Shown one piece after another: positions 2,764-30,927 of a DNA stretch of 35,169 bases. The first letter of the stretch is position 1. Each line of letters starts with the position of its first letter. This stretch comes from an uncultured Treponema sp. (lineage in GTDB: Bacteria; Spirochaetota; Spirochaetia; Treponematales; Treponemataceae), in NCBI GenBank assembly GCA_945915085.1, contig CAMEET010000015.1, forward strand, positions 1 through 35,169, written 5' to 3'. The notes under the pieces are model-generated. The model searched no databases and was not told the DNA's origin. It saw only the letters and a program-made list of their open reading frames with translations. A program made the position numbers and the translations under genes.

Positions 2764-3270
2764 ATGAAACAAATTTTACCTGCTTCGCTTCAGGAAAACG
2801 CTTTCGAAATGATTGGAAAAGACTGGATGCTTATTACCGCACAAAAAGGTGATAAGGTGAACACAATGACTGCAAGTTGGGGCGGTCTTGGTGTAATCTG
2901 GAACAAAAATGTTGTGACTGTTTATATCAGAAATTCGCGTTACACAAAAGAATTTGTGGATAGTCAGGAAAAATTTTCTATCTGCGTGATGCCGCAGAAT
3001 TTCAGAAATGAACTTTCTTATTGTGGAAAAATTAGTGGTCGCGATGAAGATAAAATTGCAAAATGCGGATTTTCGGTTACTCATCATAATGCGGTGCCAT
3101 ATTTTGAAGAAAGCCGTCTTGTTTTGATTTGTAAAAAACTTTATGCGCAGGAAATGAAAGCTGAATGTTTTACGAACGAAGGCAAAAATCTTGCAGAAAC
3201 TTTTTACAAAGACAATGATTGGCATGTAATGTATATTGCCGAAATTGAAGATATTTTGGTTGCGGATTAA
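2764..3270 (+). CDS. Flavin reductase-like FMN-binding split-barrel protein
   Basis: A 168-aa protein of the flavin reductase-like family, which binds FMN in a split beta-barrel. The region from about residue 20 to 90 carries the family pattern: MLITAQKGDKVNTMTASWGG for the flavin phosphate, then VYIRNSRYTKEF and FSICVMP. The exact substrate is unknown; members act as flavin reductases, as flavoredoxin-like electron carriers, or in unassigned reactions. GAGG five bases before the ATG supports the start. A lipoprotein glycosidase begins 20 bases after its stop and could be read through from it, but no shared function is evident. Confidence 0.85.
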   Translation: MKQILPASLQENAFEMIGKDWMLITAQKGDKVNTMTASWGGLGVIWNKNVVTVYIRNSRYTKEFVDSQEKFSICVMPQNFRNELSYCGKISGRDEDKIAKCGFSVTHHNAVPYFEESRLVLICKKLYAQEMKAECFTNEGKNLAETFYKDNDWHVMYIAEIEDILVAD

Positions 3271-20624: not shown

Positions 20625-20667
20625 ATCTTTCCTCAATTTAAACTTTGTTGTCTAATTCGACTCCCAT

Positions 20668-20850
20668 AAAAAGTCAAGAAGATTGTTTCAACAATCGATT
20701 GACTTTTTACGCTGTTCCGTAATGTAATGAGGAACAGCAGTTAAATAATAAGTTTGCAACGCAAACTTTAGGTAAGATAAATCCGCGCTATTTTAGCGGT
20801 TTTATCTTACTCTCCTTTTTTCCACAAATAAGACAGTTTTTAAAACTGTC
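20668..20850 (-). other. Run of five hairpins between AICAR transformylase and metY
   Basis: Five inverted repeats occur in succession. Plus-strand coordinates: AAAAAGTCAA 20668 with TTGACTTTTT 20708, containing GATTGTT/AACAATC; CTGTTCC 20712 with GGAACAG 20737; AAGTTTGC 20750 with GCAAACTT 20768; TAAGATAAA plus CCGC 20773 with GCGG plus TTTATCTTA 20809; GACAGTTTT 20832 with AAAACTGTC 20850. The leftmost is followed on the minus strand by T-rich sequence and could terminate or attenuate transcription before metY; the rightmost could end purH. The others are unexplained. Confidence 0.7.
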
Positions 20851-22235: not shown

Positions 22236-22263
22236 CTGGCGAACTTTTTCCGCTTAATCTTCA

Positions 22264-22477
22264 AGGTCTGTCCCCAATTGTTTACAGCTGTGTTTAAAAG
22301 GGGGACAGACCTCAATTGATAAGCAAAACTATTCCTGCATTTTGGCATACAAAGCAAGGTCTGTCCCCCTTTTTTTAATACACGAGCAAGGGAGAGTCCT
22401 TGTTTTACATAATGCTTTGTTTTCAAGGTTTGTCCCTCTTTTCACCGCTAAACATCGTAAAAACGAGGTCTGTCCCC
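22264..22477. repeat. Cluster of five AGGTCTGTCCC-type motifs
   Basis: Copies are at 22264-22275 (plus), 22301-22312 (minus), 22357-22368 (plus), 22426-22436 (plus, AGGTTTGTCCC) and 22466-22477 (plus). The first two are perfect 12-bp inverted copies with a 25-nt loop. The segment from 22381 has pieces (CACGAG, GCTAAACATCGTAAAAACGAGG) that recall the paired-hairpin element in damaged form. Confidence 0.8.
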
Positions 22478-28450: not shown

Positions 28451-28846
28451 ATGAAAACACGAAGACTTACGAAAAAAGAAATGTGGATTTTTGCTGTTGG
28501 TCAGCTTGGCTTGTAACTTTTTATCTTCCAACGAAAGGTGATATTGAATCTGGTGCAACTCAATTTTTAAAACCTGGTTATATTGTTCTTGGGTTAACAA
28601 TTCTTGGTGTTATTGCTGCAGTGTGCGAGTTTTTGATGCAATTACAGATCCGATGATAGCCTCACTATCAGATAAATCAAATAATCCAAAAGGCAGACGC
28701 ATTCCTTTTATGAAAATGGCTGCGTTTCCGTTTGCACTCACTACAATTATCGTTTTTTGTGCACCGGTTCAAAATATAAGTATGATAAATTCTATCTGGG
28801 TGTTATTTTTTTTAATTCTCTTCTATTTATTTCAGACATTTTTCTA
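28451..28846 (+). pseudogene. Truncated GPH/MFS-type sugar:cation symporter
   Basis: The start MKTRRLTKKEMWIFAVGQLG is intact, with GAGGTGC upstream. The frame then stops at 28514, but LVTFYLPTKGD continues in another frame, and RVFDAITDPMIASLSDKSNN plus GRRIPFMKMAAFPF follow in a third. These are the N-terminal helices and the conserved FDAxTDP loop of the melibiose-carrier (GPH) family. Only about the first 130 of roughly 450 residues remain, and short deletions explain the frame changes. It then runs into alpha-galactosidase sequence. Confidence 0.8.
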
Positions 28847-29660
28847 CGACAGGTGCAAAAAAACTTACAGGTTATACTTCTTGGTATAATCACTATCAGA
28901 ATATAAATGAAAAACTGATTTGCGATGCTTTGGAAAACTGTAGTTCTGAATATTTCACATTTTTCAGATTGATGATGGATTTGAAAAGTATGTTGGTGAT
29001 TGGTTATGCATTGATGAAACAAAATTTCCCAATGGTTTGAAACCGATAGTCAGTCAAATTCACAAAAAAAAATATGAAAGCCGGGATTTGGTTGGCTCCA
29101 TTTGTTGCAGAAGCGAAATCTGCTCTTTTTCGGGAAAATCCTTTCTGGTTTTGTAAAGATAATAATGGAGATTTTATAAAATGCGGGTCTAATTGGAGCG
29201 GTTTTTATGCATTTAATCTGAAAAATTCTGAAGTGATTGATAACATCAAAAAGTATCTGAATTTTTATGTGGAAATGGGTTTTGATTTTTTTTAAACTTG
29301 ATTTTTTGAATGCAGCAAATGTTTGTAATTATGAAGGAAAAACTCGCAGTCAGGTTGCACAAAAAGCGTATTCTCTTTTGCGGAAAAATAATATCAGACT
29401 TTCAGAAAAGCAACGGATTGCACTTTCTACTATAAATTCGCTTTTTGGAAGCCTTTTGATGACTAGTGATAATCCCAAAGATTATGATGAAAAACAGTTT
29501 TTACAATTGAAAGAGATTTTTTCATTATTTCAAGATGCCAAAAATGTTGATTTTGAAACTTTGGAAAATAAAATCAGGATTACTTATGAATTTAAAGGGG
29601 AAAGAAAAGTGTTGATTTATGATGTAAAAAAAGGGAATCTGGGTAAACCCGTGGCAAGGA
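28847..29660 (+). pseudogene. Decayed GH36 alpha-galactosidase
   Basis: Fragments of a GH36 alpha-galactosidase are readable only across several frames: LTGYTSWYNHYQNI, then FQIDDGFEKYVGDW, then MKAGIWLAPFVAEAKSALF, then FKLDFLNAANV, which holds the nucleophile aspartate. Three breaks lie in homopolymers: a T5 near 28960 where T6 is expected, an A9 near 29065 where A8 is expected, and a T8 near 29286 where T7 is expected. The part carrying the acid/base is missing, since RLSEKQRIALSTINSLF from near the C-terminus follows almost directly. The N-terminal domain is also absent. The tail runs into a GC-rich repeat. Confidence 0.8.
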
Positions 29661-29765
29661 TTGGAGCACCTGCCGAAGGCAGTCCCGGAGTGTAGCGTAG
29701 GGATGAGCCGCGGTTAGTCGGCGAAGTGCGGAAAGCCTGATTTTTGCGAAGCAAAAAGCCACCCA
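29655..29765. repeat. GC-rich hairpin-bearing intergenic element
   Basis: GGAGCACC is followed by CTGCC (29670-29674), a GAA loop and GGCAG (29678-29682). GGGATGAGC and GGCGAAGTGCGGA follow, as in the element at 6580-6712. It forms the artificial C-terminus of the decayed alpha-galactosidase frame. Confidence 0.65.
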
Positions 29766-29828
29766 AAATAAAAAAATGTGGAAATTGAATATGTATTATA
29801 GAGGAAAATTGTTTTTTTATAGGGTAAA

Positions 29829-30290
29829 ATGGATTTTGCAAGGTTTGATTCGACTGGTTCTAAAATGATTCGGAAGCAAAATAATTTATATTCGCTTGCT
29901 TCTAAACTCAGTCAAATAAGTCGGTTGTTTAATCATTTTGTGTGGGAACCGTTGAATAGTGAAGGTTTTAAAAAACTCACTTACAATGCGAAAGATCAGA
30001 AAAATAGTGAACTTCCTGTGCCTAGTCTGAAAAGGATTCCAAAAGATACGCCTTTTATTGCTACACATGTCTGGCCGGCGCAAGGTTCGGTTCATGCGGC
30101 TGAGTTTGGTGACGGAACTTTTGAGTGTGCTGAGAAAAAGTCTATTAATCGGATGATTGACAGAGTTTTGGAGGATAAGAAATTTTTTGTTCATATGGTT
30201 GAGCAGATTTCAAAACTGAAAACCGAAGGATATTATGATGGCGCATATCAATGTGTGAAACTTGCAGTTGGGAAAAATGGTGATTTATAA
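29829..30290 (+). CDS. Unrecognised 153-aa protein, possibly a remnant
   Basis: I do not recognise this protein. It is 153 aa, soluble and basic, with a Lys/Arg-rich start (GSKMIRKQNNLYSLASKLSQ), the segment TPFIATHVWPAQGSVHAAEF, and helical KKSINRMIDRVLEDKKFF. Codon use resembles real genes nearby and no frame on the other strand looks better. AGGG four bases ahead of the ATG is a weak ribosome-binding site. It lies between two repeat-rich segments and just after two pseudogenes, so it could be the end of a larger lost gene. Confidence 0.4.
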   Translation: MDFARFDSTGSKMIRKQNNLYSLASKLSQISRLFNHFVWEPLNSEGFKKLTYNAKDQKNSELPVPSLKRIPKDTPFIATHVWPAQGSVHAAEFGDGTFECAEKKSINRMIDRVLEDKKFFVHMVEQISKLKTEGYYDGAYQCVKLAVGKNGDL

Positions 30291-30460
30291 GTTTATGTTT
30301 TCTGTCTGCATGAGTTCCTTTCTGGAAGAAATCTTTAGTTTTTCAAAAATGGAATTCATGTGGAAGGGGGCAATGCTGAATTATCAGGCGTAAAATCATT
30401 TGGCGATGTTTTGCTGTGTTTCTTTTTTCGATTGGATTTTTATTTTAACTTTTCAAATCA

Positions 30461-30470
30461 AGGTCTGTCC
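30461..30470 (+). repeat. Single AGGTCTGTCC motif
   Basis: This copy is in the 637-bp gap 30291-30927. The first part of that gap (30291-30570) shows no convincing gene; the frames across it have poor composition and overlap repeats. Confidence 0.6.
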
Positions 30471-30578: not shown

Positions 30579-30722
30579 GTTCCTCAAAATCATAAACTTG
30601 AGAAAGTATCAACTTTCGAAAGTTTATGATTTGTCCGCGCCAAGCGGACAGTCAAATAAAAGAGTTTCGCAAGAAACTCGAAGATTATTCAAATGGCGCA
30701 ATATTAGCCATTTGAATAATAC
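30579..30722. repeat. 144-nt four-hairpin unit, copy 1
   Basis: Inverted repeats in order: AATCATAAACTT (30588-30599) with AAGTTTATGATT (30620-30631), enclosing GAAAGT/ACTTTC; GTCCGC with GCGGAC; GAGTTTC-GCAA-GAAACTC; and TTATTCAAATGGC with GCCATTTGAATAA. The next copy starts directly after it. Confidence 0.85.
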
Positions 30723-30866
30723 GTTCCTCAAAATCATAAACTTGAAGAAAGTTTGAACTTTCGAAAGTTTATGATTAGTCCGCGCGAAGCGGACAGTAAA
30801 TAAAGAAGTTTCGTAAGAAACTCTAAGATTATTCAAATGGCGCAATTTCAGCCATTTGAATAATAC
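30723..30866. repeat. 144-nt four-hairpin unit, copy 2
   Basis: This has the same length and order of hairpins as copy 1. Differences fall mostly in loops: ATCA becomes TTGA in the first, GCC-AA becomes GCG-AA in the second, GCAA becomes GTAA in the third, and ATATTA becomes ATTTCA in the fourth. It ends about 60 bases before the flavodoxin-like gene. Confidence 0.85.
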
Positions 30867-30927
30867 CTTTAATTTTGTTGATGTGGTATGGTGCAAACAT
30901 TATTGGTTTGAAAAGTGAGGTATGTAA

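Follow-up and report, generated by a model that had tools for sequence, protein, structure and literature searches.

A tandem four-hairpin unit of Treponema that spans the Rfam families TD-1 and TD-2, likely a mobile palindromic DNA element

The REP repeats of RAYT transposases and the palindrome-associated elements of the IS200/IS605 group are short, palindromic and non-coding, insert beside a short one-sided target without duplicating it, reside between genes and display a lagging-strand bias. The unit described here, which we call the TD element, seems to work in like manner, possibly with a lagging-strand bias of its own, but it comprises four hairpins in 144 nt as compared with their one or two short ones; in addition, and unlike REP/RAYT, many genomes with numerous TD copies have no Y1 enzyme, and the RAYT genes found here carry another repeat. 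IS91 targets GAAC/CAAG-like tetranucleotides, and TD insertions likewise adjoin such tetranucleotides without duplication; however, we found no convincing Y2 transposase in the genus, and the TD element is devoid of coding capacity. Compared on layout alone, TD units resemble integron attC sites in being structured, recombination-prone and arrayed, but differ in having four hairpins, dispersed intergenic sites and no cassette genes between units.

The closest homologs are the Rfam families TD-1 and TD-2 (clan CL00124), to which the units studied here show full-length matches on opposite strands. Rfam files the two separately, TD-1 as a cis-regulatory RNA and TD-2 as an sRNA, whereas we propose one mobile DNA unit of four hairpins that has its own ends and target and forms arrays. 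Palindromic non-autonomous elements and both Rfam entries are thus already known; as far as we have checked, the new points are that TD-1 and TD-2 are unified, that the unit has definable ends and a target, that it forms arrays, that its pairing bears a DNA-level signature and that it fits ribosome-binding sites. A search of the literature other than the original description, which may already note part of this, yielded nothing on TD-1 or TD-2 as a repeat. We consider it likely that the array is a pair of adjacent copies of a non-autonomous palindromic element moved as single-stranded DNA, the steps proposed below included; of its parts, we are confident that the element is dispersed and mobile, and we give the single-strand mechanism about an even chance.

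The array in the window and its relation to TD-1 and TD-2

The window, i.e., the whole 35,169-nt stretch analyzed, is contig 15 of a Treponema genome comprising 162 contigs. As a sequence-only reading had proposed, two 144-nt units lie end to end at 30579-30866, with TRF reporting one array of period 144, 2.0 copies and 91% matches; the claim of four strong hairpins per unit in a shared order was also borne out, with fold z-scores as RNA of -11.5 and -9.5 and none of 200 shuffles as stable. Folding unit 1 with DNA energy parameters left its structure unchanged. On the plus strand, unit 1 runs from the terminal block GTTCCTCAAAAT through hairpins 1 to 4 to a terminal ATAC, and the minus strand is the TD-1 sense, in which the unit starts with GTTTAAA and hairpin 4 and ends with hairpin 1 followed by TTTTAAGGAA(G/C). 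The features are as follows.

30579-30722, plus strand: TD unit 1, family I, 144 nt (TRF, fold; 153.8 bits with R2, our covariance model built from 25 units)
30723-30866, plus strand: TD unit 2, family I, 144 nt, head-to-tail with unit 1 (TRF, fold; R2 match of 145.6 bits)
30588-30631, plus strand: hairpin 1 of unit 1, a two-part stem with internal loop and apical loop ATCA (RNA and DNA folds)
30632-30650, plus strand: hairpin 2 of unit 1, GTCCGC/GCGGAC (fold)
30662-30679, plus strand: hairpin 3 of unit 1, GAGTTTC-GCAA-GAAACTC (fold)
30684-30720, plus strand: hairpin 4 of unit 1, 14-bp stem and 9-nt loop (fold)
30732-30776, 30778-30794, 30804-30824 and 30828-30864, plus strand: hairpins 1 to 4 of unit 2 (fold)
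30579-30583, minus strand: terminal GGAAC of the array, a Shine-Dalgarno-like end that also recreates the target site
30867-30870, minus strand: target tetranucleotide AAAG flanking the opposite array end (AAAG / GTATTA... on this strand)
20661-20812, plus strand: third unit of the window, family II, ~155 nt, four-hairpin plan kept with different stems
30583-30689, minus strand: full-length Rfam TD-1 (RF03155) match in unit 1, 56.0 bits, E 1.1e-8, below the gathering score of 64.5
30727-30833, minus strand: full-length TD-1 (RF03155) match in unit 2, 56.1 bits, E 1e-8, below the gathering score of 64.5
30633-30726, plus strand: full-length Rfam TD-2 (RF03162) match, 31.2 bits, E 0.0056, below the gathering score of 48.7

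At the Rfam gathering thresholds the window units gave no match, and the TD-1 and TD-2 matches surfaced only in E-value mode, with unit 2 scoring 19.5 bits for TD-2 on the plus strand (gathering score 48.7). Among units of congeners, three exceeded the TD-1 gathering score (L057, 78.9; L043, 77.9; L056, 67.9), while the best TD-2 score, 44.2, remained under 48.7. TD-1 corresponds to hairpins 3-2-1 on the minus strand and TD-2 to hairpins 2-3-4 on the plus strand; because each spans overlapping hairpins on opposite strands, the two families describe one unit.

The sequence-only reading had also pointed to a preserved GNRA tetraloop in hairpin 3 and to conserved stems with drifting loops. The window loops are indeed GCAA and GTAA, but related units in the 25-unit alignment carry GTTA, GCCA, TTTA, CTAT or CTTCGT-type loops; the GNRA form shared in the window is a chance feature of two close copies. 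Across the family the contrast of stems and loops is rather the reverse, with stems varying freely by compensatory pairs and loops and linkers being better conserved (TTCA of hairpin 1, GCNATTTCA of hairpin 4 and the terminal blocks). Hairpin 2 is dispensable, being missing from the family that expanded in one congener (G126).

The family II unit of the window has its minus-strand end, GGGAG, upstream of a minus-strand gene that by eye resembles a PLP-type Cys/Met-metabolism enzyme. Upstream of the array, 28483-30290 contains several short ORFs in successive frames, one stretch of which resembles by eye an alpha-galactosidase remnant; this region looks like a decayed gene cluster.

Dispersal, empty sites and target

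The genome of the window harbors more than 40 copies of the unit, with 67 matches by blastn and 68 by covariance model, counts that take in partial copies and reverse-strand echoes. A search of other Treponema genomes, which had been suggested as a check, revealed R2 matches in 46 of 89 near-complete congeners and none in the remainder; three complete single-contig genomes had 87 (G012), 99 (G007) and 46 (G015) matches. A pattern scan of 84,980 species genomes returned 67 stretches, all in Treponema or a Spirochaetia MAG, and the TD element is, as far as searched, restricted to Treponema. Carriage by phage or plasmid was dropped as an explanation, since viral contigs, phages and plasmids searched showed no match to the unit. 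Units across the family measure ~124-180 nt with four hairpins, and 26 of 90 loci are arrays of 2-4 units. To look for a full-length coding version, we compared the partial copies of the window's genome by similarity in search of half-units forming a pair; none was recognized in this screen, which left the intervals unannotated. The duplication might in principle be a simple local one of an intergenic palindrome cluster, in keeping with two direct copies end to end, but dozens of copies are dispersed, several of them 94-95% identical to unit 1 as compared with 91% for unit 2, and the whole array is missing at orthologous sites; we accord this explanation virtually no probability. The same dispersal contradicts the refuting outcome named in the sequence-only reading, namely no copies elsewhere and a very recent duplication.

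Empty sites support movement. The window array is missing, without target duplication, at the orthologous sites of two related species: in G170 (L112) the joined flanks of our locus align with no gap at the junction, the sequence diverging just after it, and G112 (L111) reads through as TTATTCTTT, with TTATT/CTTT in place of TTATT/array/CTTT and a 4-nt indel five bases before the junction. Both relatives possess the flavodoxin/HTH operon and an alignable upstream region, and since both are without the array, the link to this operon drawn in the sequence-only reading is incidental. A site at parE is likewise unit-free in G112 and G170 and filled in the own genome, but this empty site is less clean because the own site also carries another repeat, and at a third locus (C49) a clean empty site was not found. 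The empty sites could also be precise losses, though two relatives are without the window array. Recent expansion is evident in G126, where 22 examined copies differ on average at 2.5 of 124 positions (98% identical) while their flanks are as different as unrelated sequence. One G126 copy sits inside the 4-nt loop of an intrinsic terminator, both halves of whose stem are preserved, again without duplication. Hairpins spanning the junction were unsupported as a target rule in general (42 of 79 sites vs. 39.0 with swapped flanks), leaving the terminator-loop case a single one.

In the TD-1 sense, the 5' flank ends in a GAA(C/G)-like motif at 87 array-first sites, giving a target of approximately (G/A)AA(G/C), and the unit itself ends in GGAA(G/C); insertion thus occurs just 3' of a (G/A)AA(G/C)-like site without target duplication. 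The last base is common to flank and unit end in 27 of 64 single copies vs. 19.8 expected (p 0.03), and such sharing, being barely above chance, argues for a target motif rather than a duplication. A strict target duplication was tested and found unsupported; the slight excess leaves some room for a partial one. At internal array junctions GGAA(G/C) occurs just once, which is what insertion of a new copy behind an older one's end should produce, and the element end, by recreating the target, explains the head-to-tail arrays. A classical MITE mobilized by a DDE transposase would also be short, non-coding and multicopy, but the two ends of the unit have no terminal inverted repeats, no target duplication of constant length is seen and the target is a short motif on one side, rendering this alternative highly improbable. 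Taken together, the number of copies, the empty sites, the preferred target and the recent burst support the 'mobile structured element' offered among the original readings, and the units are also compatible with the 'recombination site' mentioned there.

With the replication origin set near coordinate 1 from GC skew, 81 arrays in the three complete genomes have their TD-1 sense with the fork and 40 against it (p 2.4e-4). This bias has the direction that insertion into the lagging-strand template would give, but it may instead be due to the orientation of genes.

Base pairing and ribosome-binding sites

A covariance model of the copies, also among the checks suggested, revealed compensatory changes in 39 of 41 base pairs among 128 distinct units (1,085 such cells vs. 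271 in shuffled data). Standard pairs occupy 96% of pair cells in this 128-unit alignment, which was fitted to the structure and hence favors it, as compared with 32-46% for slid structures; an independent alignment, made with MAFFT from 25 units, gives a concordant picture (93.7%; 29 pairs, 145 cells). A one-strand RNA is expected to show G-U pairs well above A-C on that strand. Among 5,097 pair cells, 4,823 are Watson-Crick, 71 G-U (1.4%) and 50 A-C (1.0%), with the proviso that alignment by covariance model could mask some imbalance of A-C or G-U; the G-U share of 40 tRNAs from the fetched loci was 6.7%, a control valid for G-U alone, as the tRNA caller cannot report A-C. With G-U about equal to A-C, the pairing looks strand-symmetric and hence DNA-level, and we surmise that the structure of the unit is probably maintained in DNA, possibly by selection on single-stranded or cruciform DNA or by templated palindrome correction. 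In a family II copy (L066, 1320-1475), the loop of hairpin 4 has the opposite orientation to that of its sisters, as though DNA had been inverted between the arms of the palindrome; such an event is readily understood in DNA.

The unit end, AAGGAA(G/C) or GGGAG, is a Shine-Dalgarno-like run. We counted 30 family II copies that are non-redundant and retain this end intact: a start codon follows 4-12 nt past it in 20 of them vs. 1 of 30 at the other end, while in family I the tendency is weak, with 15 of 82 units vs. 5 at the other end. The genes downstream encode a topoisomerase/gyrase B-type subunit, a KDPG aldolase, a uracil/xanthine permease, a PnrA-type lipoprotein, glycoside hydrolases 16 and 57 and a DHODB-type reductase; as these are unrelated, the association with start codons follows from the target and the end sequence and not from a common regulon.

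These data bear on the cis-regulatory RNA of the Rfam filing, in which TD-1 would form a structured 5' leader with hairpin 1 beside the Shine-Dalgarno controlling translation. Strong covariation, the 20 of 30 family II copies with a GGAG end before start codons and the three congener units above the TD-1 gathering score accord with this role, yet the downstream genes are unrelated, only 15 of 82 family I units lie at that distance from a start codon, G-U is rare without strand bias, orthologous genes occur without the unit and, in the TD-1 sense, no gene starts within 45 nt of the window copy. We regard it as unlikely, and the catalogued cis-regulatory RNAs are probably the subset of copies before start codons. 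The 'functional RNA' raised in the sequence-only reading agrees with how TD-1 and TD-2 are filed, but scarce G-U, its balance with A-C, patchy occurrence and unrelated neighboring genes argue that a DNA structure rather than an RNA is maintained.

At L008 and at L218 (~3198-3230), hairpin 4 in the TD-1 sense supplies the ATG and first codons (MAEIAPF-like) of possible ORFs, so that the element may have been exapted as a gene start. A separate palindromic repeat, around CACCTCCTGCGCAATCGCTAACGCGAAGTTTCTATAGGAGGTG (L064, L065, L007, L081), also ends in a Shine-Dalgarno beside start codons.

Candidate movers and a proposed mechanism

A REP/BIME repeat moved by a RAYT (Y1) transposase would be short, palindromic, intergenic and multicopy without target duplication, all true of the unit, and RAYT-like Y1 genes are present in the genome of the window (L060) as well as in G126 and G110. 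However, eight high-copy genomes (G011, G012, G013, G015, G021, G068, G077 and G098) have no Y1 match, RAYT-length Y1 genes occur in five zero-copy genomes (G010, G056, G084, G104 and G123), and a different palindrome, AAGGTCTGTCCC/GGGACAGACC, borders most of the RAYT-type genes that we examined. We therefore find RAYT/Y1 unsupported as mover, its presence not tracking the element and no cognate Y1 flanked by the unit having been found, and the REP/BIME explanation improbable. IS91-type Y2 enzymes were discarded as well, with borderline partial matches in 2 of 89 genomes, none convincing. A retro-element copied through RNA would agree with a structured, transcribable unit and with partial copies that keep the hairpin 1 side, but searches for RVT_1 gave no match in the genome of the window, in G126 (the burst species) or in five many-copy genomes that are complete or nearly so (G007, G011, G012, G013 and G015), and the pairing is without an RNA-like share of G-U; reverse transcriptase was dropped as mover, and we see only a very slim likelihood for this route.

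As no transposase was found to track the element, we infer both mechanism and mover. The mover is possibly an HUH-type or other recombinase not yet recognized, or an enzyme lost after the burst; past action of a lost Y1 HUH TnpA on the unit ends is also possible, with many high-copy genomes being without Y1. The features of an IS200/IS605-like mechanism are present, namely insertion 3' of a short target, no duplication and hairpins near both ends. We propose that the element would be excised and pasted as a folded single strand by a putative enzyme acting in trans, which would recognize the terminal hairpins 4 and 1 and cleave at two sites, the flanking (G/A)AA(G/C) and the terminal GGAA(G/C). 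Every inserted copy would carry a new target at its end, allowing arrays to grow, and insertion at a ribosome-binding site may keep the gene translatable because that end is a Shine-Dalgarno-like purine run, so that copies before start codons might be tolerated and become structured 5' leaders.

We raise, as a tentative and rather doubtful extension, that these units represent a new class of multi-hairpin single-stranded DNA transposon, with ends serving as both Shine-Dalgarno and own target, which an undescribed enzyme moves and which colonizes ribosome-binding sites harmlessly and builds arrays. If so, TD-1 and TD-2 would cease to count as RNA families and be filed as DNA elements instead. 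Should the mover prove to be a new enzyme, it would provide a small and precise means of insertion that uses a short target and leaves it unduplicated. By inserting into ribosome-binding sites and rebuilding the signal there, a selfish element would spare its host and seed new 5' leaders. That one mobile DNA element seems to underlie both catalogued RNA families, each being a reading of one strand, calls for caution in covariation-based RNA discovery: compensatory change alone is no proof of RNA, and comparing the frequencies of G-U and A-C is a cheap test.

Two further repeats came to light. The palindrome AAGGTCTGTCC, which flanks most RAYT-type genes examined in the genus and is probably their REP, occurs 19 times in the window at up to one mismatch vs. 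0.28 expected (e.g., 30460-30470, 2559-2594 and 22263-22475). An insert that contains the palindrome GTCAAGGC...GCCTTGAC together with a small hairpin is nested in a family II unit and is also located upstream of parE in G170 (L071, 1238-1407; L082).
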